Virus record (IMG/VR): IMGVR_UViG_3300036766_000426
Span: 1 to 25,629 of that record
Length of the DNA: 25,629 nt
Source of the DNA: a virus
Strand: one strand, 5' to 3'
Shown here: positions 2,873 to 18,653 of the stretch, one piece after another
How positions within the stretch are numbered: the stretch's first letter is position 1
How the letters are laid out: each line of letters opens with the position of its first letter
Position numbers and translations under genes: made by a program
Notes under the pieces: generated by a model
Database searches by the model: none
Told to the model about the DNA's origin: nothing
The model's input: only the letters and a program-made list of their open reading frames with translations

Positions 2873-4781
2873 GTTTTCAAACGGCGGCATACTTATCGAA
2901 TCAGTCAGCGAACTTCCGGCTTTGCCTGACAATGTCAGCGAGCTGTTCTTGGACTTTGAAACGACAAGTGGTGATCCACGATTGGATTCGTTAAACCCAT
3001 GGCATCACTGCGCACCGTATTGTTATGCGTTTACGTGGGATCAGGTTCCACTTGCATGGTGCGTCCCAGCCGGTCTAGCTGATAACTGGCTTCAAGAGCT
3101 AGTACGGCGATCAAAGACTTGGGTGAATCACAACGTTAAGTACGATGCCCATGTGTTCAACAATGGAATCGGTCCGCTGCCCGAAGATCTCGAATTGCGA
3201 TGTACTGTTGTGAGTGCCAAGATTCTCGATAGCGATCGAATGTTCTCTGGAGGCTACGGCCTTGACGCTTTGTGCATGCATTGGCTTAAAGAGGATATCT
3301 CGAGCTACGAAGAAAGACTCAAACCATATCTGCACAAAAACAAGGACTTCGGTAGAATCCCACTTGACATCATCGCGGAATACAACTGCCAAGACGCCTT
3401 ATCGAACAGGCGACTACACAGATACATCGACGCACGCACTCCCGAACAGTGCCAAGGGGTACTCAAGACTGAGATCGAGCTTACACGCGTGCTGTTTGAA
3501 ACAGAGGTATATGGGATGTGCGTCAAGCCTGTTGAGCTAATATCGAAAGAGTTCATCATCATGACTCAGATGTGTGAACTCGAAGAACGACTTGAAAAGG
3601 CAGCAGGCCGGAGTTTTAGACCGCACGTGAACGAAGACTGCTTCGAAGTGCTGTGCCTCCAGTACGGTCTGCCTGTTGCAGGATACACTGACGAGGGGAA
3701 TCCATCCTTCGACAAAGAAGCGCTAGCTGCTTACATTGGTCATCCGCATGCACCTCAGGATATCGTAACGAACATCATTGCATATCGTAAGTTGAATACA
3801 CTTAAGAACTTCTTTATCACGCCGTACCAAGAACTGAACATCGATGGAATCTTGCATCCTCAATACAATCAAGTAGTGCGCACTGGTCGTATGTCGTGCA
3901 AGACACCCAACAGCCAACAATTAAACAAGGAGGCCAAAGAGCTCATACATCCACGTGAAGGCAACTCATTCATCTCGATTGACTTTTCACAAATCGAGTT
4001 TCGCTACATGATGCACTACATCCAAGATCATGATGCGATCGCTGCGTACAATGAGAATCCCGATACTGATTTTCATCAGTGGGTTGCAGACATGTGCGAG
4101 ATCAGTCGTAAACCTGCGAAGACAGTTAACTTTGCAATCGGATTTGGTGCAGGCAAGAAAAAGACAATCAAGATGCTTACTGCAAATGGCGAAGTCATCG
4201 GTGCTGTAGATGCTGAGGTGAGAGCACTGATTGCTCGAGGTACATTCAAAGAGTCTGAATACAAGAATGTGTTTAACTCGATGTGTGAAGATCGAGCTAT
4301 CGCTGTTTTCAACAAATACCATGAGACACTACCGGGTATCAAGCGCACATCTCGCAAGTGTGCAGCGGTTGCTGAACAGCGCGGATACGTATACAACATT
4401 TATGGACGGCATAGACATTTGCCGAGAACGCATGCGCACATCGCTTTCAACTCGATCAATCAATCAAGTGCAGCTGATCTGATGAAAGAGCGCACAGTCG
4501 CAGCGTGGCACATGATAAAGGACACACCCATTCGTATTGTTGCAAGCGTCCACGATGAGACGCTTTTTGAGGCGCCAACTGAAATCGCTGAAAACCCAGA
4601 TGTGATTCGAGACCTAGTCAATTTAATGGAGCATCCAGCCATAGAGATACGAGTGCCAGTTCGATGCTCGGTAGGGGCCTCAAAATTGCATTGGAGAGAG
4701 GCCTGCTCAGACCAGGTAGCAAAACCACTAAAATACGATCCGGCTGCTAGCGGGCGCCTGGAGGGCCTAAAAAAGTGCTAA
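2865..4781 (+). CDS. DNA polymerase, family A, with 3'-5' exonuclease domain
   Basis: 638 residues, the replicative-type phage Pol I homologue. The exonuclease domain shows Exo I LDFET (Asp30, Glu32), Exo II NVKYD (Asn90, Asp94) and Exo III YNCQD (Tyr173, Asp177), all intact, so proofreading is expected. The polymerase domain has motif A SIDFSQIEFR (Asp373), motif B RKPAKTVNFAIGFG (Arg415, Lys419, Phe423) and motif C SVHDE (His563, Asp564, Glu565). Position 762 (E. coli numbering) is Phe423, the wild-type-like state. Position 766, normally Tyr, is Phe427, and Gly763 is Ala. No 5' nuclease domain is present. The start overlaps the previous gene by 8 bp. It closes the nucleotide-supply operon. 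Confidence 0.97.
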   Translation: MLKFSNGGILIESVSELPALPDNVSELFLDFETTSGDPRLDSLNPWHHCAPYCYAFTWDQVPLAWCVPAGLADNWLQELVRRSKTWVNHNVKYDAHVFNNGIGPLPEDLELRCTVVSAKILDSDRMFSGGYGLDALCMHWLKEDISSYEERLKPYLHKNKDFGRIPLDIIAEYNCQDALSNRRLHRYIDARTPEQCQGVLKTEIELTRVLFETEVYGMCVKPVELISKEFIIMTQMCELEERLEKAAGRSFRPHVNEDCFEVLCLQYGLPVAGYTDEGNPSFDKEALAAYIGHPHAPQDIVTNIIAYRKLNTLKNFFITPYQELNIDGILHPQYNQVVRTGRMSCKTPNSQQLNKEAKELIHPREGNSFISIDFSQIEFRYMMHYIQDHDAIAAYNENPDTDFHQWVADMCEISRKPAKTVNFAIGFGAGKKKTIKMLTANGEVIGAVDAEVRALIARGTFKESEYKNVFNSMCEDRAIAVFNKYHETLPGIKRTSRKCAAVAEQRGYVYNIYGRHRHLPRTHAHIAFNSINQSSAADLMKERTVAAWHMIKDTPIRIVASVHDETLFEAPTEIAENPDVIRDLVNLMEHPAIEIRVPVRCSVGASKLHWREACSDQVAKPLKYDPAASGRLEGLKKC

Positions 4782-8417: not shown

Positions 8418-9242
8418 ATGAAAATTAAATGCAAGACATGGGCACCACGCCATAGCTCGTTCCGGTATGCTCAGCACAAGCTTGACGGTATATGGCTCAA
8501 CTTAGAATTGACGCCTATCGGCATTTGTGCATTTACATCGCATCCGACGGATATCACTCTGCAGGTTCAAGACTATAGGTGGTTCAAGTCAGTTACGCAA
8601 GCGCTTGAATTGCTAGGCGGCAGTCTTTACGGCGAGCTGCATGTTCCAAGCAAACGAGCGTCATACGTTAAGTCGGCACTCAAGTTTCAAGATCAAGCTC
8701 TTGCGTTCACAGCGTTCGCATCAACATTGCACGAGAATGATTGTTCGCTTGAAGACCTTGAGAGTTTCTTCGCGGGTATTGGCATCAGGTCTGCACGATT
8801 TGTGCGCATCGAGAACCGGCTTGTGCAGGACCCGCTAAGTTTCATGCCCGATCATCCTGATGTCGAAGGCCTTGTCTTCAAAAACGGAAATCTACTAGAT
8901 TGGGTCAAGTGGAAGCCCGTAAAGACAATCGACCTTATCTGCACAGATTTCATTGATGGCAACGGCAAGTACATTGGGCAGACAGGCGCTATTGTGTGCA
9001 GCACTGCATGTGGACACATTGTTGCCAATGTCGGCGGCATGACTGACGAAGAGAGGCTGTTAATTTCAGATGACGAAGAGGTATACCGTGGCCGTGTTGT
9101 TGAGGTCGCCTACCAGTACGTCGGAACAGGCGGTCGTTTGAGGCATCCACGCTTTATTCAATGGCGTGACGATAAGCAACCCGAGGACTGCACAACAGAT
9201 CAGGATCCTGACTTAGAGGAGTACTACGATGCGCGTAGTTAA
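8418..9242 (+). CDS. ATP-dependent DNA ligase
   Basis: 274 residues, the small phage type. It seals nicks using ATP through a lysyl-AMP intermediate. Nucleotidyltransferase motifs are in order: motif I KLDG with Lys21, motif III YGELH at 71-75, motif IV VEGLVFK at 149-155, motif V WVKWKP at 162-167. A short OB domain ends with motif VI-like RHPRFIQWRDDK at 242-253. Size matches minimal viral ligases without extra DNA-binding domains. The SD is weak. The stop region overlaps the kinase start by 14 bp, so the ligase heads the sugar-gene run. Confidence 0.93.
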   Translation: MKIKCKTWAPRHSSFRYAQHKLDGIWLNLELTPIGICAFTSHPTDITLQVQDYRWFKSVTQALELLGGSLYGELHVPSKRASYVKSALKFQDQALAFTAFASTLHENDCSLEDLESFFAGIGIRSARFVRIENRLVQDPLSFMPDHPDVEGLVFKNGNLLDWVKWKPVKTIDLICTDFIDGNGKYIGQTGAIVCSTACGHIVANVGGMTDEERLLISDDEEVYRGRVVEVAYQYVGTGGRLRHPRFIQWRDDKQPEDCTTDQDPDLEEYYDARS

Positions 9243-9855
9243 AAAATGCGACGATGCACAGTTCCAATACGATTGGCTTATGGCAATTCCGAGCTGGCTT
9301 CGACCGAGTGGACTCGAGATATACAACGGCGCCCTAAGCTATGACTTCATCGACGGCCAGACGCCTCGTGACTACTATGATGTTTGGCTCATGATGAAGC
9401 AAGACGTGTGGGGTGGAATGGGCCTTACAGTCGATCGAAATCAATACTGCAGCTACGTAGCTGGTCTGACTGATGATAACATGTCTCGTGTGCTTCGCAT
9501 TATTGACAAGAGTGAACTAACCTCTGTGACGCGTTGTCATGGGGACTTGACACTTTACAACTGCATCGAGACAGTTGAAAACGATCTTGTTCTTTTCGAT
9601 CCGAATGACTGCCATGGGCTACCGTGCCAAGAGCTCGACGAATCCAAGTTATTACAGTCTCTCGATGGGTTCGACTACGTCCACAAAGGGCTGCCGCCGT
9701 TAACACATACGATCATGTTTGATTGTCGTAAGGTGCATTGGGCTTTGCTTATCACCCATTACATTCGGATGCTACGCCATCCAGACAAGATAAGCAACGT
9801 ATCACAGAGCTTTGCCCGTGAGCGCATCAAATCTATAATGGAGTGGATTACATGA
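9229..9855 (+). CDS. Aminoglycoside-phosphotransferase-fold small-molecule (sugar) kinase
   Basis: 208 residues; SD TTAGAGGAG upstream in the ligase gene. The C-lobe kinase motifs are clear: catalytic HGDLTLYN at 104-111 (Asp106, Asn111), metal-binding FDPND at 123-127 (Asp124), and ELDESKLLQSLDGF at 135-148, a segment I associate with APH-like kinases in polysaccharide gene clusters. The N-lobe is short. Such kinases phosphorylate a sugar or sugar alcohol hydroxyl. The neighbours (HAD phosphatase, NTP-sugar nucleotidyltransferase, cupin, glycosyltransferase) support a sugar-activation role over antibiotic resistance. The substrate cannot be named. Confidence 0.75.
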   Translation: MRVVKKCDDAQFQYDWLMAIPSWLRPSGLEIYNGALSYDFIDGQTPRDYYDVWLMMKQDVWGGMGLTVDRNQYCSYVAGLTDDNMSRVLRIIDKSELTSVTRCHGDLTLYNCIETVENDLVLFDPNDCHGLPCQELDESKLLQSLDGFDYVHKGLPPLTHTIMFDCRKVHWALLITHYIRMLRHPDKISNVSQSFARERIKSIMEWIT

Positions 9856-10181
9856 CGTACTTTGTCGATATTGATGGTGTCGTATTCAAGCACAAGAACG
9901 CAGGCGCTTTGAATCAGTGGTTCGATATGGGCGAGCCCATTATGGGAACTATTGCAACATTGTCGCGGCTCGAGGCTGAAGGTGTGATTATTGTCCTTGT
10001 GACCGCTCGACCGAATTGGATGCGGCAAGTATTACAGCAGGCGCTGTATCGTCATCATGTTGTTCATCACCACTTGTTGATGGGCGTCACATCTGGCCTG
10101 CGATATATCGTGAATGATCGAAAGGCCGACGGCTCATTGTCATGTATTGCAATCAACCCTCCTCGTAACCAAGGATTCTGA
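9852..10181 (+). CDS. Small HAD-superfamily phosphatase
   Basis: 109 residues from the ATG at 9852 (ATGA overlap with the kinase stop; GGAG upstream). HAD motif I is FVDIDGVVF with nucleophile Asp6 and acid Asp8, motif II is VTARP with Thr51, and the motif III/IV region is YIVNDRK around 86-91. The minimal size without a cap domain resembles the small HAD proteins found beside kinases and nucleotidyltransferases in capsule clusters, where they dephosphorylate sugar phosphates. The last acidic motif is ND instead of the common DD, so activity should not be assumed. Confidence 0.75.
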   Translation: MTYFVDIDGVVFKHKNAGALNQWFDMGEPIMGTIATLSRLEAEGVIIVLVTARPNWMRQVLQQALYRHHVVHHHLLMGVTSGLRYIVNDRKADGSLSCIAINPPRNQGF

Positions 10182-10183
10182 TC

Positions 10184-10786
10184 ATGAATGGAATTGTCCT
10201 CGCGGGCGGTGCAGCAACGCGATTGCCCAACAAGGCATTGCTGCCGATCAAAGGCAACAAGATCGCAATCCAATCTGCAATCGACTTTTGTGTTCGATCA
10301 CAATGCGATCGAATTATCGTCGTGGTTCCGTCTAATGGAATCATTCAAGAGGTGCTCTCAGGAGAGTTGATTTTCGTAGAACAGCCAAAGCCGTTGGGTG
10401 TAGGCAATGCAATCAAGCTTGCAGTCGAGTGTGTAAAGTCTGACGATTATTTAGTCACATTTTGTGACAACATATACGATCAGGACGAATGCTTCGTAAA
10501 GACAAATACGATCCCTATGGCTTCTGTTCGTAAAATCGAAAAGCCGTTCTCAGATGAGTTGGACAAGTATGTTCATAGCCTCTGGGTTTCAAAGCGAGCG
10601 CTGGGCAATGACTGTCTTGCAGGCTGGTACTATCTACCGCGTGACAGTGCACTTAGAGCGCTGCCGCACGAAGAGAGTATCTACTTTTTGAATCGCATCG
10701 GCGCATCAGGTTGCTACATCGATTCTGCATTCAAGTGGCATGACATTGGCACTGTCGCATCGTATCTCCATTACTTGAAAGGTTAG
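10184..10786 (+). CDS. NTP-sugar nucleotidyltransferase (NTP_transferase family)
   Basis: 200 residues. The N-terminal signature VLAGGAATRLPNKALLPI at 5-22 is the nucleotide-binding loop of GlmU/RmlA/MurU-type enzymes, which couple a sugar-1-phosphate (or similar phosphate) to an NTP and release pyrophosphate. EQPKPLGVGNAI at 66-77 and FCDNIYD with Asp95 match the base-binding and metal-binding segments. The compact length indicates the catalytic core only. Two bases from the HAD gene and directly after the kinase, it completes a kinase-phosphatase-activation trio that would yield an NDP-sugar. Base and sugar specificity cannot be read with confidence. Confidence 0.85.
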   Translation: MNGIVLAGGAATRLPNKALLPIKGNKIAIQSAIDFCVRSQCDRIIVVVPSNGIIQEVLSGELIFVEQPKPLGVGNAIKLAVECVKSDDYLVTFCDNIYDQDECFVKTNTIPMASVRKIEKPFSDELDKYVHSLWVSKRALGNDCLAGWYYLPRDSALRALPHEESIYFLNRIGASGCYIDSAFKWHDIGTVASYLHYLKG

Positions 10787-10789
10787 GGC

Positions 10790-11629
10790 ATGAAGTACTA
10801 CTTTTCACCCGTGTCTCAAGAGGCGATGGAAGCAGCGTATATCGTAGAAGGCGAAATCGGATTCTGTGCCAGCATTGGACAAGTAGGCCCAAATGCGTAC
10901 ACTGGCTTAACCGATGATCGGTTTGCATTACTACGTCAGCATTACAGCAAAGTATACGGCCGCGAGGTAGTCGCTGAGCGTGACCACTTAGGACGTGCTG
11001 GCGAAAATTCAGCTGAATGGATTGTGCGTGACATCGCACATGGTTTTGAAGAATGTATGCTGCATATCTTCGATCAGGCGGGTCTGCCCTCTGGAGTTAC
11101 AGGCGAAATGAAGTTAAAGTGGCAGATAGGCCCGGGCGAGGACGATAGTCGCGAGTTCTTAGATAGTGCATTGCACGGTTGGGCTATGCCGACGTGGGTC
11201 AGCTTTCCTACGGGTTGCTTGATCGAGGGTCTTGGAAACCGCGGACAACTCAACTTAAGGCGTGTGTATGAGACTCGGCGATATTGGCCGCAGCTATTGA
11301 TACGCGCGCACAACTGCGACTACCTGCCGGCAGCCACTATCAAGCAAGTGAAGATGTTCTTTGATGGGATGAATATCGCACCGCAAGTCGGTTGTTTTCA
11401 GTCGTGCGCGTATTTGATTATAGCACGAGCCATGTCATTGCCTATTCAAGAATGGGAAGACGCGTGCTGGGCAGACCAAGACAAGATCAAACGGTGGGGT
11501 CTCAACGAACGCAATTTTGTTCAAGGCATGGGTCATTATCATTATGATAAGATCCCGTGGCGTCAAGAGTTCTATACCTCAGTAGTCGAACGCATTTCAG
11601 GATTCATGCAATGGGTGATAAACTTATAA
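10790..11629 (+). CDS. GatZ/KbaZ-like TIM-barrel protein (sugar aldolase-like)
   Basis: 279 residues. RDHLGR at 64-69 resembles the GDHLGP signature, and IRAHNCDYLPAATIKQV at 171-187 resembles the AHSTDYQ segment, of GatZ/KbaZ, the barrel-shaped partner of class II tagatose-bisphosphate aldolases. AHGFEECMLHIFD at 83-95 fits a barrel strand-helix step. These similarities are from memory of the family pattern. The length is shorter than GatZ (about 420). It sits between the nucleotidyltransferase and the cupin, so it may make or cleave the sugar precursor. Whether it is catalytic on its own is unknown. Confidence 0.55.
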   Translation: MKYYFSPVSQEAMEAAYIVEGEIGFCASIGQVGPNAYTGLTDDRFALLRQHYSKVYGREVVAERDHLGRAGENSAEWIVRDIAHGFEECMLHIFDQAGLPSGVTGEMKLKWQIGPGEDDSREFLDSALHGWAMPTWVSFPTGCLIEGLGNRGQLNLRRVYETRRYWPQLLIRAHNCDYLPAATIKQVKMFFDGMNIAPQVGCFQSCAYLIIARAMSLPIQEWEDACWADQDKIKRWGLNERNFVQGMGHYHYDKIPWRQEFYTSVVERISGFMQWVINL

Positions 11630-11925
11630 AGCGATGGGGCAGCGAAGAGATCTTGTTCTTTGGTGCGTACATGCTCAAGCAGCTTGTACTTGATCCCGGC
11701 CAATGCACATCGATGCATTTCCATTATGCGAAGTGCGAAACGCTGTATGTGCTGCGGGGTTCGCTCGTAATTGAATTCGAGGAGCGTAAGACCGTATACT
11801 TAGAGCGAGACGAGTCACTTACGATATACGAAGGTAAATCCAATGCCCATCGTATGCGCAGCGCTGGAGGCTGTGTCTACTTAGAGGCATCCACCCCTCA
11901 CAGACACGATAGCGAAAGAATATGA
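11611..11925 (+). CDS. Cupin-domain protein, possible sugar-phosphate isomerase
   Basis: 104 residues from the ATG at 11611 (SD TCAGGA, spacing 8; 19-bp overlap with the preceding gene); an earlier start at 11557 would sit well inside that gene. Single-domain cupin: MHFHYAKCETLYVLRG at 35-50 gives metal ligands His36, His38 and Glu43, and His80 in KSNAHRM gives the fourth. The WGSEEI opening and this motif resemble cupins related to type II mannose-6-phosphate isomerases that accompany polysaccharide genes. Likely an isomerase or epimerase in the sugar pathway; the substrate is unknown. Confidence 0.75.
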   Translation: MGDKLIKRWGSEEILFFGAYMLKQLVLDPGQCTSMHFHYAKCETLYVLRGSLVIEFEERKTVYLERDESLTIYEGKSNAHRMRSAGGCVYLEASTPHRHDSERI

Positions 11926-13085
11926 AAACACTATTATTCGCGAAGGGCGGCGGCCCGATGTACACTCGTGATTTTATCGGGCGAGCCTCTGCGTCTGGTG
12001 AGCAAGGCGAGTCTGAAGGTACGCTGAGGCATCTGTGTGAGCGCGACGACTTACGCGTGATCTATTTTGGCCAGAGCTACGGCGAGCTGCCATGCGAGTC
12101 ATACAGGCCAATGATCGACGGATTGACCGAGATGTCGAATGCAGCGGTGCAGGAGGCTTATTGGGATGTTGATGAAATAGCTATTCGAGCAATGCTCGGC
12201 GACGATGAGTGCATCGGGTTCTTGAACATTGCGGGGTACTCGCCTACATTCAGCTGGATTGCAAATCCAAACTACGCAACGGTGCAGGCGGCCGCAGTGC
12301 GGTACACAGGGCCAATGAATTCGATTATCGAAAGGCTCAAGTTGCCTAGACTGGTTGTAAACAACGATCCACGCACGTATCCGAAGGACCAAGAAATGTC
12401 CTATGGATGGGACCACATCAGACCCGTAGCGTTGCTCGATCAATGGGGTGATCAACGTGTTCAAGTAGTAGGCGGCAAAAAGTATCTCAGGCGCTCTATC
12501 TGGGCCAAGTGTGAATCGTGGGGTTACTTGAAGCGTTACGAAAATCTAGGCATTGAGCGTTGTGTGGTACTTGCGCATGCCCATGTTGACACCGGAACGC
12601 GCAATGGCTCATTCGAGCCGTGGCACCGAATACTCGATGGAACGAGTTATCCGATCTATGGTGCGGGCTGGGACGGCTTTCCGCAATGGCAAGGCGCTGT
12701 GCGTCCTAAAGAGGTGCAAGAAATTCTCAAAGATGCAATATGCTGCCCGGTGTTATTCAATACACCTGGGTTCTATACTGGCAAGTGCTATGTTCTTGAG
12801 TCGTGCGGCTGCATTCCTATTCTCTATGGTGATGGGTCTTGCCCACATACCGCTGATCCACGAGAGCAATGGCAATTATTTAGCGATCCTCGTCGAGTCG
12901 TTTTTGACTTAGATCGCGTCATCGATGAGCGTGATATCGATGAAGAGCGAAGAGAATGGAATTTGCGATGTCTTCCGGACTGGCGATTGCTCGATCAAAT
13001 GATTGATAATTTGCTCGATGGTTTGGATATCTCTAGTGATGCCTGGTTTAAGCGGTATGGAGGTTACAGGCAGCTGACTGGTTAG
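11922..13085 (+). CDS. Glycosyltransferase, GT-B-like
   Basis: 387 residues, starting in an ATGA overlap with the cupin. The C-terminal half carries a GT-B-like donor-site pattern, PGFYTGKCYVLESCGCIPIL at 282-301 with acidic Glu293, followed by a Gly/Asp loop; the N-terminal half has alternating strands and helices. GT-B enzymes transfer sugar from an NDP-sugar to an acceptor. As the last gene of the sugar-activation run it is the natural user of its product. Acceptor candidates are hydroxymethylated cytosine in phage DNA (by analogy with T4), virion protein, or a host glycan. The family call rests on pattern only. Confidence 0.6.
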   Translation: MKTLLFAKGGGPMYTRDFIGRASASGEQGESEGTLRHLCERDDLRVIYFGQSYGELPCESYRPMIDGLTEMSNAAVQEAYWDVDEIAIRAMLGDDECIGFLNIAGYSPTFSWIANPNYATVQAAAVRYTGPMNSIIERLKLPRLVVNNDPRTYPKDQEMSYGWDHIRPVALLDQWGDQRVQVVGGKKYLRRSIWAKCESWGYLKRYENLGIERCVVLAHAHVDTGTRNGSFEPWHRILDGTSYPIYGAGWDGFPQWQGAVRPKEVQEILKDAICCPVLFNTPGFYTGKCYVLESCGCIPILYGDGSCPHTADPREQWQLFSDPRRVVFDLDRVIDERDIDEERREWNLRCLPDWRLLDQMIDNLLDGLDISSDAWFKRYGGYRQLTG

Positions 13086-13164: not shown

Positions 13165-13497
13165 ATGAGTGAAAGTTCCGATACGCGAGATTTGTGTGCA
13201 CAGCTTAAGAAATTCAATGCAGTGGTGTATGCCGTGGTAGGAAGTCAATTTGCACACCCGGGTTGGCCTGACCGCTATGTGCATCATAGATATTGGTGTG
13301 GGTGGTTAGAGTTCAAAGCGCCCAAGGGTTCATTGAGCAAACTGCAACGTGAAGTGATTCATAAGCTCAACGAACTAAAGCCTGGGAGCGCTTTTGTTGT
13401 TCGACACCCTGATAGTGTAGAGGACTGTGATGGGCGTGTTCTCGCAGAATTTTCAAGTGCGCACGATTTACTGCTAAAACTGCGAGATTTGACATAG
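13165..13497 (+). CDS. VRR-NUC domain nuclease
   Basis: 110 residues, start ATG at 13165 after an 80-bp AT-rich gap. It shows the PD-(D/E)XK core: GWPDRYV with Asp36, WLEFKAPKG with Glu49 and Lys51, and downstream Gln61 in LSKLQREVIHKL, the arrangement of VRR-NUC proteins, which act as structure-specific nucleases such as Holliday-junction resolvases. Phages use stand-alone VRR-NUC proteins to resolve DNA before packaging. The TAG stop lies inside the left arm of a 22-bp inverted repeat. Confidence 0.85.
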   Translation: MSESSDTRDLCAQLKKFNAVVYAVVGSQFAHPGWPDRYVHHRYWCGWLEFKAPKGSLSKLQREVIHKLNELKPGSAFVVRHPDSVEDCDGRVLAEFSSAHDLLLKLRDLT

Positions 13498-13514
13498 CAC
13501 AACTGACCAAGGTG
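13493..13514 (+). repeat. Left arm of 22-bp inverted repeat
   Basis: The core CACAACTGACCAAGGTG and flanking bases are the exact reverse complement of 13683-13704. The arm includes the stop codon of the VRR-NUC gene. Imperfect complementarity continues inward for about 12-14 more bases. Confidence 0.95.
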
Positions 13515-13682
13515 CAGCATCCAATTTGGCAACGGGCTATAGAACTCTATATCCGTATAGTTGAAAAAACCCACAAGTACTACCAATTATTAGATTTATG
13601 AAAAAAGCCTAATAGCTGTTTCTATTGTATACGTAGGGACTGCCGGTAGTTTCTAATTGGCCGGTTTTCGAATTCGATACTA

Positions 13683-13704
13683 CACCTTGGTCAGTTGTGC
13701 TATG
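13683..13704 (+). repeat. Right arm of 22-bp inverted repeat
   Basis: Reverse complement of 13493-13514. The arm ends with the ATG of the next gene (13702-13704), so in RNA the start codon would pair with the region of the upstream stop codon. Confidence 0.95.
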
Positions 13705-13998
13705 AAACGGAAATATAATAATTCATTGCGTCTTGATCGAAAAGCAGCCCGTCTGAAACGCGAAGCTTTACGCGCGGCTAAACGAGCAGAACGAAATGCG
13801 TTTGTTGATGCACAACCTCGAAAAGACCGCCGCATAATTGCGCGTAGACGCAATCTGCCACCTGACTTTCGATGCCCAGAGTGCCATGAGATAAAACTCA
13901 AATCTCGACAATGGGTTGTGACTGAAGAACTTGGAGCTTTGTGCTTGGCATGCTACAGGAGACACGATGAACGGATTGACGTGGCTGAGCGAAAATAG
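13702..13998 (+). CDS. Small basic zinc-finger protein
   Basis: 98 residues from the ATG at 13702; a TTG at 13657 is possible but has no SD either. Residues 1-52 are a highly basic helix (Arg/Lys/Ala-rich). Residues 58-84 hold CPEC and CLAC pairs (Cys58, 61, 81, 84), a probable zinc ribbon. The combination suggests a DNA- or RNA-binding regulator. There is no visible SD: the start codon sits at the end of the right inverted-repeat arm, so translation may depend on the upstream ribosome or on RNA folding. Its end overlaps the sigma-like gene by 32 bp. Confidence 0.7.
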   Translation: MKRKYNNSLRLDRKAARLKREALRAAKRAERNAFVDAQPRKDRRIIARRRNLPPDFRCPECHEIKLKSRQWVVTEELGALCLACYRRHDERIDVAERK

Positions 13999-14461
13999 GA
14001 GTTTCGTAGAGTGGCTATGTCGCATCTCGGCGAAAGGACAAGTTGATGCAACTGATGAACTATGGGAGGTCGCAATAGACAAGGTGCAGCAAATCTGCGA
14101 CACATACGACCCAGATAAAGGTGCGTCGTTACGCACGTATCTTCATCGAAGTCTGCGTTGGTACATGTACAAATACATGACCGCTCGTGAGCGACGCCTT
14201 CAAAAACATACATCACTTGATGGGGTCGAGCATAAATTCTATAGTATGACCGATAACCTCTGCATACGGGACGAGGTATATCATATCATACGACAGCTCT
14301 CAGAAACTGAGGTGTCATTGCTTACTATGCATCATGTTCAAGACAAGACCTTCGCACAAATGGGCCAAGAGCTAGGCATCTCAACATCGTCTGCACGCAA
14401 CTACTACTATGTCGCGTTACAACAAGCGAGGGGGCTTGCTTCTCGAAGGCCCGCCGATTGA
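13967..14461 (+). CDS. Small RNA polymerase sigma-70-like factor
   Basis: 164 residues from the ATG at 13967 (SD CAGGAG, spacing 5-6). Residues 47-72 (YDPDKGASLRTYLHRSLRWY onward) match sigma region 2, which binds core RNA polymerase and the -10 element. Residues 111-155 (LSETEVSLLTMHHVQDKTFA and the following GISTSSARNYYYVALQQAR) form the region 4 helix-turn-helix. Region 3 is absent, as in small sigma factors. Positioned just before the packaging and structural genes, it may redirect host polymerase to late promoters. A region 4-bearing regulator that does not act as a full sigma is the alternative. Confidence 0.8.
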   Translation: MNGLTWLSENRSFVEWLCRISAKGQVDATDELWEVAIDKVQQICDTYDPDKGASLRTYLHRSLRWYMYKYMTARERRLQKHTSLDGVEHKFYSMTDNLCIRDEVYHIIRQLSETEVSLLTMHHVQDKTFAQMGQELGISTSSARNYYYVALQQARGLASRRPAD

Positions 14462-15107
14462 TCGGCCTGAGTATCAGTGCGAAGCCAAGACACCCCACGG
14501 GCCGTGTAAGAAATGGAAATTGAAAGGCCAAAAGTATTGTGCATCGCACGGGGGCGCTACGCCTAAGCGTCATATTCGGCCTGAACAAAATCCTATGCCT
14601 AGATTCTACGGCAAGTACTTGACACGGACGTTGAGCGAGGCGCTCGAAGAGTCAACCTCTATTTCACCCGCTGAACAACTGCAGCTCTATGACGAGCTCG
14701 CATTGATTCGCGACGCTGCCGGGCAGGCAGTGCAGATGTATGCCCTTGCTCGAGAAGCGCTTGAGCAGAACAAAGACGCAGCAAAGACAAGCGCCTTGCA
14801 GCAAATCGTAATGCAGGCAAGCTTGCTGATGCGCGATCATCTCAGCGAAGTAGTCAAGGTCTGTGAATCAGCTGCACGTATTGAGCAGCAAGCAAAGGAC
14901 AAGATTTCGATTCATCAGCTGCACTTCTTCATCAATCAAATCGTTCGCTGTGCATACGACGCATTCGACGGTAGTATTGAGCACGCACAGACATTTGAGA
15001 ACTACGTACGCAATCATATTCGTTTGCCGGCATCTGGTGAGAATGGAACCGCATTGACTCCTGACATGGACGTTCAAGCAATGGACGACACGGTGCCTCA
15101 TGAATAG
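14409..15107 (+). CDS. HGG-motif zinc protein, possible small terminase subunit
   Basis: 232 residues, overlapping the sigma gene by 53 bp. Near the N-terminus CEAKTPHGPCKKWKLKGQKY and the following CASHGGATPK (about 24-53) form the Cys-Cys-Cys-His HGG zinc motif frequent in phage proteins, often beside or in small terminase subunits. The remaining sequence is mostly helical (residues 75-205), which fits oligomerisation. The large terminase is about 2.3 kb downstream, so a packaging role is plausible but indirect. No strong SD is visible; translation may be coupled to the sigma gene. Confidence 0.55.
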   Translation: MSRYNKRGGLLLEGPPIDRPEYQCEAKTPHGPCKKWKLKGQKYCASHGGATPKRHIRPEQNPMPRFYGKYLTRTLSEALEESTSISPAEQLQLYDELALIRDAAGQAVQMYALAREALEQNKDAAKTSALQQIVMQASLLMRDHLSEVVKVCESAARIEQQAKDKISIHQLHFFINQIVRCAYDAFDGSIEHAQTFENYVRNHIRLPASGENGTALTPDMDVQAMDDTVPHE

Positions 15108-15735: not shown

Positions 15736-15921
15736 ATGCTCGTACTATCACGGATGGAAGAAGAGGGCATCATGATCGCTGGCGGCTCGGTCTGTATTCG
15801 AGTACTGTCGATTCGTGGTAAGCGTGTTCGGCTCGGCATCATTGCACCTGATAATATCGACGTGCACCGCGAGGAGATCTTCGAAAGGATCAAGCAAAAG
15901 GATGCGTCTGACTCGAAGTGA
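15736..15921 (+). CDS. csrA: CsrA/RsmA-family carbon storage regulator
   Basis: 61 residues with the whole family pattern: MLVLSRMEEEGIMIAGG, then IRVLSIRGKRVRLGIIAPDN, then VHREEIFERIK, which includes the conserved Arg of the RNA-binding face. CsrA dimers bind GGA motifs in mRNA leaders and block or change translation; in many bacteria this sets carbon metabolism and motility. A phage copy could reprogramme host translation or control phage mRNAs, whose SDs contain GGA. Standard length. The end overlaps the second glycosyltransferase start by 20 bp. Confidence 0.93.
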   Translation: MLVLSRMEEEGIMIAGGSVCIRVLSIRGKRVRLGIIAPDNIDVHREEIFERIKQKDASDSK

Positions 15922-16995: not shown

Positions 16996-17370
16996 ATGTC
17001 TGCTGAGATTCAAGCAATGACTGGGCTCATCGTTAAGAAGGGCCAGACACGACTAGATGTAGCTAAGCAAATCGAAAACTTCGATATGGCTGGGACACGC
17101 GTCGCTCAGTTTCAACAAACGATCGGGACGACGTACGAAGCGATTGCTTGGCCCGCTGACATGGCCAATCAAGGCTTCGCTCACTTTCGTAATATCGACC
17201 CGACAAACTACATCGAGCTTGGTCTTGTCGTATCAGCGACGTTCTATCCGTTTGCTAAACTTGTGGGCGGTGCAATTGGCCAGCCTGCACAGTTCCCAGT
17301 AGGCGGGACGTTGTACGCCAAAGCAAACACTGCGTCGTGCGAGCTATCCGTTGCAGGCTGTGAGCGATGA
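16996..17370 (+). CDS. Small structural-like phage protein
   Basis: 124 residues with a very strong SD. The central part, FRNIDPTNYIELGLVVSATF then YPFAKLVGGAIG and YAKANTASCELSVAG, has the look of small beta-rich virion or tail-completion proteins (residue-in-place, kinetic DPTNYIELG pattern common in such proteins). No catalytic motif. Position directly before the large terminase and its strong expression signal support a virion component. Assignment is by resemblance only. Confidence 0.55.
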   Translation: MSAEIQAMTGLIVKKGQTRLDVAKQIENFDMAGTRVAQFQQTIGTTYEAIAWPADMANQGFAHFRNIDPTNYIELGLVVSATFYPFAKLVGGAIGQPAQFPVGGTLYAKANTASCELSVAGCER

Positions 17371-18653
17371 TCACTCCCGCATGGGTACCATTGAGGCATC
17401 ACCCGCAACAAAATTTGTTGTGGCGTACCCGTGCGCGCTTCGTAGGTGTTGCGGCTGGTCGCGGTTCGGGCAAGACAGAGATCTCAAGGCGTCGTGTTGT
17501 ACGCATGCTTCCAATCAAAAAGCCTTGGTCTGACCCGATGTACTTCTATGCGCTGCCTACATATAAGCAAGCTCGGCGCGTTGCTTGGCGACAAATCCTT
17601 AAGCTCATACCGAAGGAGTGGCTCAAGAAGGAACCCAACTCTAGTGAGATGCTCATTGAGACTGTGTTCGGCTCAATGCTTTATGTAGTCGGCATGGATA
17701 AGCCTCAACGAATTGAAGGCGATCAATGGGATGGAGGCGTCCTTGATGAGTCATGTGATCAGAGACCTGGTGGCTTTGCTAGGAGCATCTTGCCGGCGTT
17801 ATCTCACAGGGACGGGTGGTGCTGGAGAATCGGAGTACCGAAACGCTTCGGTACAGGGGCCCAAGAGTTCAAAGAATTCTGCCAAGCAGGCAGCGCGCCG
17901 GGCCAAGGAGCAGAACACGAAAGCTACACGTGGTCGTCGGAAGACATTCTATCGCCAGAGCAGCTCCGATGGGCCCGAGAGAACTTAGATGCGAAGGACT
18001 ACAACGAGCAGTACCGCGCGTCTTGGGAAACTGCCAGCGGTCTAGTGTTCTTTGCATTTGATGATGTGATGAACGTACAAGAAGTTGCGTACAACCCAGA
18101 GCTGCCACTAATTATCGGTAGCGACTTCAACGTTGACCCAATGGCATGGGTTATCTCACAGCGAGTACGCGATGAGTTGCATGTACTTGATGAACTGTGG
18201 CTGCGAAATACAAATACACAAGAGACGTTGACGTATCTGCATGCAAGATACGGGACCCACAAATCAGGATTCGATTTTATCGGGGATGCTACGAGCCAGG
18301 CACGTAACACGCGAGCGTCAGCGTCTGACTATATACAGATCAAGAACGATAAGCGATTCAGCAATGCACGTGTGTTCTACCCGCGGCGCAATCCTAGTCG
18401 ATCAAACAGGTTTGCAGCGTGCAATGCTCTGTTTTGCAATGCAGAAGGATTGCGTCGATGCATCATTCATCCCCGTTGTGCCAACTTGCGGCGTGATCTT
18501 TTAACACGCGCGTACAAGCAAGGCACAACTGAGGTCGACGATTACGGAGACGTCGGTCACATCACAGACGCACTAGGGTATATCGTGCATAGGCTATTTC
18601 CGCTCACAGTACAAATACCTGAGGTCATGTCGGAGGTTTATGTCAATGGTTGA
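17367..18653 (+). CDS. terL: Terminase large subunit
   Basis: 428 residues; ATGA overlap upstream. ATPase: Walker A AAGRGSGKT at 29-37 and Walker B GGVLDES at 123-129, with a coupling-motif-like GVPKRFG at 156-162. RNase H-like nuclease: SDFNVDP with Asp253, FIGDATS with Asp307, and DVGHITDALGYI with Asp401. The enzyme pumps DNA into the procapsid and cuts the concatemer. Length is typical for the smaller TerL groups. The nuclease acidic residues are all present, so it should be functional. It overlaps the portal gene by 14 bp. Confidence 0.95.
   Translation: MITPAWVPLRHHPQQNLLWRTRARFVGVAAGRGSGKTEISRRRVVRMLPIKKPWSDPMYFYALPTYKQARRVAWRQILKLIPKEWLKKEPNSSEMLIETVFGSMLYVVGMDKPQRIEGDQWDGGVLDESCDQRPGGFARSILPALSHRDGWCWRIGVPKRFGTGAQEFKEFCQAGSAPGQGAEHESYTWSSEDILSPEQLRWARENLDAKDYNEQYRASWETASGLVFFAFDDVMNVQEVAYNPELPLIIGSDFNVDPMAWVISQRVRDELHVLDELWLRNTNTQETLTYLHARYGTHKSGFDFIGDATSQARNTRASASDYIQIKNDKRFSNARVFYPRRNPSRSNRFAACNALFCNAEGLRRCIIHPRCANLRRDLLTRAYKQGTTEVDDYGDVGHITDALGYIVHRLFPLTVQIPEVMSEVYVNG

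Follow-up and report, generated by a model that had tools for sequence, protein, structure and literature searches.

The DNA analysed here, referred to below as the window, is a stretch of 25,629 nucleotides (nt) comprising positions 1 to 25,629 of the IMG/VR virus record IMGVR_UViG_3300036766_000426, a 25.6-kb virus contig. At 13493-13704 it carries a dyad, that is, two long inverted arms around an AT-rich non-coding interior, which lies between a VRR-NUC nuclease gene (13165..13497, plus strand, 110 aa; PHROG_93 endonuclease, 1.3e-9) and the gene for a zinc-ribbon protein (13702..13998, plus strand, 98 aa) that has a basic N-terminal helix and a CPEC...CLAC motif. Next in the operon are genes for a sigma-70/ECF-like factor (13973..14461, plus strand; TIGR02937 above cut-off, PF08281), for an HGG-type protein (14409..15107, plus strand) and, further downstream, for the terminase large subunit (17367..18653, plus strand; phrog_2, 5.9e-27). 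The HGG-type protein has a weak HGGxSTG domain match and a conserved place 5' of the large terminase, from which we infer that it is the small terminase subunit (TerS).

The outer pairing of the dyad is exact over 22 nt, positions 13493-13514 being the perfect reverse complement of 13683-13704, as a preliminary description of the locus had reported. The full arms (13493..13537 and 13660..13704, both given on the plus strand) are 45 nt each and 84% complementary, and the 122 nt between them (13538..13659) are 62% AT against 52% in the flanks. Imperfect pairing does continue inward, and the earlier figure of about 36 bases was too low, since symmetry is found on about 54 aligned columns at 81%. 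The left arm contains the VRR-NUC stop codon (TAG, 13495-13497) and the right arm ends with the zinc-ribbon ATG (13702-13704); no Shine-Dalgarno (SD) sequence is visible at this start. These features agree with the earlier account. The start codon itself is backed by the homologue in a related phage, G017, which likewise begins MKRKY. In a scan of the window this element, with a score of 31.2, was the sole two-arm dyad with a span of at least 100 nt that scored above 14, although arm boundaries and scan results depend on the chosen alignment scores. RNA folding, proposed earlier as a check, gave the dyad a stronger fold than all 200 dinucleotide shuffles (z -7.65), and the DNA minus strand also folded beyond its shuffles (z -8.16). 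The dyad had no match to any described RNA family in Rfam at the gathering threshold, a sigma-70 promoter scan gave scores close to chance, and a terminator was not found.

The arm occurs once in the record, and an arm 18-mer gave two chance matches in unrelated IMG/VR sequence. The search of the whole phage and of IMG/VR that the preliminary description had suggested for tracing the repeat therefore left the arm confined to this locus. Because the arm itself is unique, its family was sought via the large terminase; relatives, all of them metagenome contigs, were gathered by terminase searches and then by VRR-NUC alignment, zinc-ribbon alignment and motif pattern searches. Single-protein searches with the VRR-NUC and with the zinc-ribbon protein gave no matches, and a distant blastn search returned no phage record. 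The sole VRR-NUC relative among annotated phages was MW202657, together with its twin; the neighbourhood there is different, and the nearest strong inverted repeat in MW202657 is a 44-nt hairpin 5' of the nuclease gene, which is not a comparable dyad. The relatives are designated G001, G005, G006, G007, G009, G017, G018, G023, G027, G029 (locus L139), G030 (L140), G031 (L142, with near-identical L143, L147 and L148), G032 (L216) and G033 (L152 and L153); G002 has the same open reading frames (ORFs) and dyad as G001 in this region. The gene order VRR-NUC, zinc-ribbon, sigma, putative small terminase is common to most of them.

Fifteen lineages, the window included, carry a dyad at the corresponding junction; two cases are weak (G001 and G030; the G030 dyad, with a score of 11.1, is inside the range of its own shuffles). 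It lies 3' of VRR-NUC and, in all but G009, 5' of the zinc-ribbon gene, although the VRR-NUC gene is about 2 kb from the dyad in G023 and other ORFs intervene between dyad and zinc-ribbon gene in G001. Spans range from 148 to 559 nt and are mostly 195-280 nt (window 212; G001 206-212; G005 218; G006 202; G007 559; G009 195; G017 211; G018 384; G023 332; G027 274; G029 240; G030 148; G031 262; G032 about 210; G033 218). A scan of six contigs, namely the window and five relatives 44-54 kb long, ranked it as the top two-arm dyad in each. When left and right arms were compared all against all, cognate pairs had a mean score of 29.1, while non-cognate pairs had a mean of 8.2 and a maximum of 12.8, and in most phages the symmetry reaches past the best 16-bp block at 62-79% identity. 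Thus the dyad is kept in position and symmetry, not in letters, among distantly related phages. This pattern contradicts the suggestion of a miniature inverted-repeat transposable element (MITE)-like insertion made in the preliminary description. Terminal inverted repeats and an AT-rich interior without a gene would suit such an element, but it is present in a single copy, no target-site duplications were seen by inspection of the flanks in the window and relatives, and the same junction is occupied in divergent phages by unrelated arms; we regard a MITE or other mobile insertion as extremely improbable.

The dyad and the zinc-ribbon gene tend to occur together. Each of the 14 loci with this gene, whose product has homologues 3' of the dyad in 14 phages, carries a dyad (weak in G030), as opposed to one of five VRR-NUC phages that lack the gene (G009; not G014, G024, G028 or L131). 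The association is significant by Fisher's test (P 0.0013) with kinship ignored and with G014 and L131 seen only in part. Two later finds agree with it: a new zinc-ribbon phage, G033, has the dyad as predicted, and a motif match in G032 yielded a dyad plus a zinc-ribbon gene. In L131, VRR-NUC leads directly into sigma, and putative terS, sigma and terL are present with no dyad.

Phages without the dyad show other repeats at comparable places. G016 and G014 have 11-bp tandem arrays (TTGGTATAACA x5 and GAGTTATACTT x5) 5' of the sigma gene, and G016 has a second array (CTTATAAGACA x5) immediately 5' of the large terminase; the arrays lie at 1-55 and 5431-5486 of L036 and at 1127-1180 of L034. Because their period equals one helical turn, the sequences suggest arrays of binding sites at the same control position. 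A subgroup without the zinc-ribbon gene has a compact, long-armed hairpin of 85 nt right before the sigma gene (967-1051 of L110, from G008, and 11784-11868 of L106, from G024). The contigs of G001, G006, G008, L147, L148 and L153 start about 0.5-2 kb 5' of the respective dyad or hairpin; either a genome end or an artefact of assembly might account for this.

A motif search of the arms by expectation maximization (EM) in 13 phages returned GATAACTGACCA with a log-likelihood of 51.2, where the null reached at most 35.6, phylogeny being ignored. The window has only two exact copies of the core motif, one in each arm: CACAACTGACCAAGG (common core approximately GATAACTGACC) at 13498..13512 on the plus strand and an inverted copy at 13685..13699 on the minus strand. 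Arm cores are confined to this locus in the genomes. In the trio G005, G032 and G033, extra variant copies are found in the stretch from the right arm to the zinc-ribbon gene: G032 and G005 each have four copies of one phage-specific variant, in direct and inverted orientation, with one right before the zinc-ribbon SD, and G033 has three variant copies, the left one partly diverged. Because direct-orientation copies would be useless in a single hairpin, they fit protein-binding sites better.

The trio also shows how the arms change. The interiors of G005 and G033 are 82-85% identical, against 51-53% for the nearby part of the VRR-NUC coding region and the spacer, and G032 aligns likewise. Within 29 arm positions, G005 and G033 differ by six double changes that keep pairing (P 1.5e-5 under independence), and these come as adjacent doublets. 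The preliminary description had held that absence of covariation in relatives would speak against its proposals; the covariation is strong, and it supports a conserved dyad but not specifically an RNA. The doublets fit template switching between the arms, a process by which the arms of imperfect inverted repeats change jointly in clustered multi-base steps (PMC8604942, PMC8794818). Such template-switch quasipalindromes resemble the present case in that their arms change together, but they reflect a mutational process, whereas the present dyad has held its position in very distant phages, so that selection on the site is needed besides template switching.

The strong folding, the stop and start codons inside the arms and the concerted change of the arms could also be taken for an RNA device, as had been proposed, in which a long hairpin masks the zinc-ribbon start until a ribosome arrives at the VRR-NUC stop. 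RNA folds are strong in four phages (z -3.3 to -8.6). Selected pairing in a transcript, however, should give G-U mismatches in excess of A-C, and over the 13 phages arm mismatches are 28 G.T and 29 A.C with no strand preference, a balance as expected for double-stranded DNA. Furthermore, only about one phage in three has the upstream stop inside the left arm, and the VRR-NUC stop lies 25-270 nt 5' of that arm in G001, G009, G027 and G030; the start and SD are beyond the right arm in most phages, G006, G007, G009, G027 and G030 among them; and in G001 the intervening ORFs separate hairpin and start. We therefore consider an RNA switch quite unlikely as a general explanation; translation coupling may hold in the window itself, where both codons are within the arms, but it is not what is conserved.

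An invertible DNA segment, with the arms as recombination sites, would likewise keep its arms alike by inversion. Invertons, which are invertible promoters of similar size with inverted ends, offer a natural comparison, the 200-300 bp between inverted sites being as in known examples. Close relatives here show no inversion, however, the interior being in one orientation in the four near-identical phages L146-L149 and in G005, G032 and G033, and no recombinase gene was noticed beside the dyad, though no systematic search was made. This explanation seems very unlikely.

The adjoining nuclease gives more weight to a replication or recombination site, possibly an origin, that is extruded as a cruciform and processed by the VRR-NUC protein as a resolvase; a cruciform or origin near a Holliday-type nuclease was also among the roles first proposed. 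In the nuclease, E3, D36, E49xK51 and Q61 are invariant among 15 homologues and the active-site pattern E..D..ExK..Q is intact, although its Pfam score is below cut-off. An AlphaFold2 model (predicted local distance difference test, pLDDT, 93.7) matches Hjc resolvases and VRR_NUC 4qbo, and by this predicted fold the protein does resemble Holliday junction resolvases. Stand-alone VRR-NUC proteins cleave four-way junctions (PMC4103454). The AT-rich core, arm pairing kept without strand preference and the long arms of G007 and G023 agree with extrusion. On the other hand, extrusion should be inefficient with a loop of 122 nt, VRR-NUC occurs without a dyad in L131, G028, G014 and G024 and is distant from it in G023, and a cruciform needs neither extra direct copies nor a common sequence core. 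GC skew does not switch sign at the dyad, and some contigs show no more than local maxima of G skew; near the dyads of G007, G023 and G027 there is a local G-over-C maximum on the coding strand (0.27-0.36 in G007 against about 0.13 elsewhere) with the sign unchanged. The resolvase-like model and the evidence for action as DNA stand in favour of the earlier proposal, but we judge this reading unlikely.

A pac-like packaging start, with the small terminase bound to both arms and the large terminase cleaving the AT-rich core or DNA close to it, is somewhat unlikely but a serious candidate. The terminase genes are downstream in the same operon, the sites are confined to this locus in the genome, and the AT-rich conserved core has a candidate binding region on either side, a design comparable to that of SPP1, where the cut site pacC lies between the TerS sites pacL and pacR (PMC4856287). 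SPP1 pac (pacL-pacC-pacR) and lambda cosB are alike in having phage-specific protein-binding regions and bent DNA beside terminase genes; they differ in that the arms here are inverted copies and lie two genes before the putative small terminase, with the zinc-ribbon and sigma genes in between. Moreover, the dyad tracks the zinc-ribbon gene and not terS, L131 having putative terS, sigma and terL with no dyad. In many contigs the sequence continues across the dyad; this ill fits an obligate cohesive end, yet is compatible with headful packaging.

The reading we favour, tentatively and at somewhat less than even confidence, is that of a cis-acting DNA element that controls the late operon through protein-binding sites placed in inverted orientation on both sides of an AT-rich core. 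It would stand at the entrance of an operon for the zinc-ribbon protein, sigma factor, putative small terminase and large terminase, and its arms would be inverted copies of a site for a phage-encoded DNA-binding protein, flanking the non-coding core. The zinc-ribbon protein is the likeliest binding partner; its alignment shows a basic helix together with a ribbon of the form CxxC...CxxC, and its model has a pLDDT of 90. Binding on both arms might bend or loop the core and so turn a promoter or other core activity on or off, and the extra copies beside the zinc-ribbon ribosome site in some phages could provide self-regulation. The arms would stay alike while drifting between phages through concerted evolution by template switching, together with co-evolution with the protein. 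We infer the identity of the binding protein, the looping and the role in late-gene control from sequence comparisons, and the core could serve as promoter/operator, as packaging start, or in replication or recombination.

Several observations weigh against a control site of this kind. A fold search with the zinc-ribbon model gave nothing below E 0.79 and no significant match to a DNA-binding fold. The aligned arm symmetry covers 27-136 columns, in some phages far longer than a normal operator, and site spacing ranges from about 130 to 510 nt with no clear helical phasing. Interiors are AT-rich relative to most flanks, and a motif search of them across phages found only a low-complexity AT pattern near the null, with none common to all. 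G009 has a strong dyad with another arm sequence and no zinc-ribbon gene; this dyad, at 4179-4373 of the reverse complement of L105, is followed by a 302-aa basic ORF, and its left arm contains a 14-bp palindrome, CTATTACATAATAG, that is almost repeated in the right arm.

Looped operator pairs are known from lambda OL/OR, AraC O2/I1 and other phage and bacterial repressors. Like them, the proposed control site has paired sites around a control region beside a candidate regulator gene; unlike them, its arm symmetry is much longer, and repressor and promoter are here only candidates. A broader scheme, in which a dyad fluid in letters but kept in symmetry would either extrude or be looped by a dedicated zinc-ribbon protein, and would be cut by VRR-NUC to start packaging or late recombination-driven replication as an initiation site recognised by its structure, appears quite unlikely.

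Elsewhere in the window, a phage CsrA homologue (15736-15921; PF02599, 1.4e-18) lies upstream of the large terminase gene. Genes for HAD-hydrolase-like, nucleotidyltransferase and cupin/mannose-6-phosphate isomerase-like proteins are clustered with unassigned genes at 9229-13085, looking like phage sugar-nucleotide or surface-glycan metabolism.

The dyad represents a conserved non-coding site, with a proposed control role, in uncultured phages. Sequence similarity searches miss it because its arms diverge past recognition and yet remain mutual inverted copies. It offers a concrete case of phage inverted sites evolving in concert, and it points to a small, testable set of proteins that could act on the site, namely the zinc-ribbon protein, the sigma factor, the putative small terminase and VRR-NUC.
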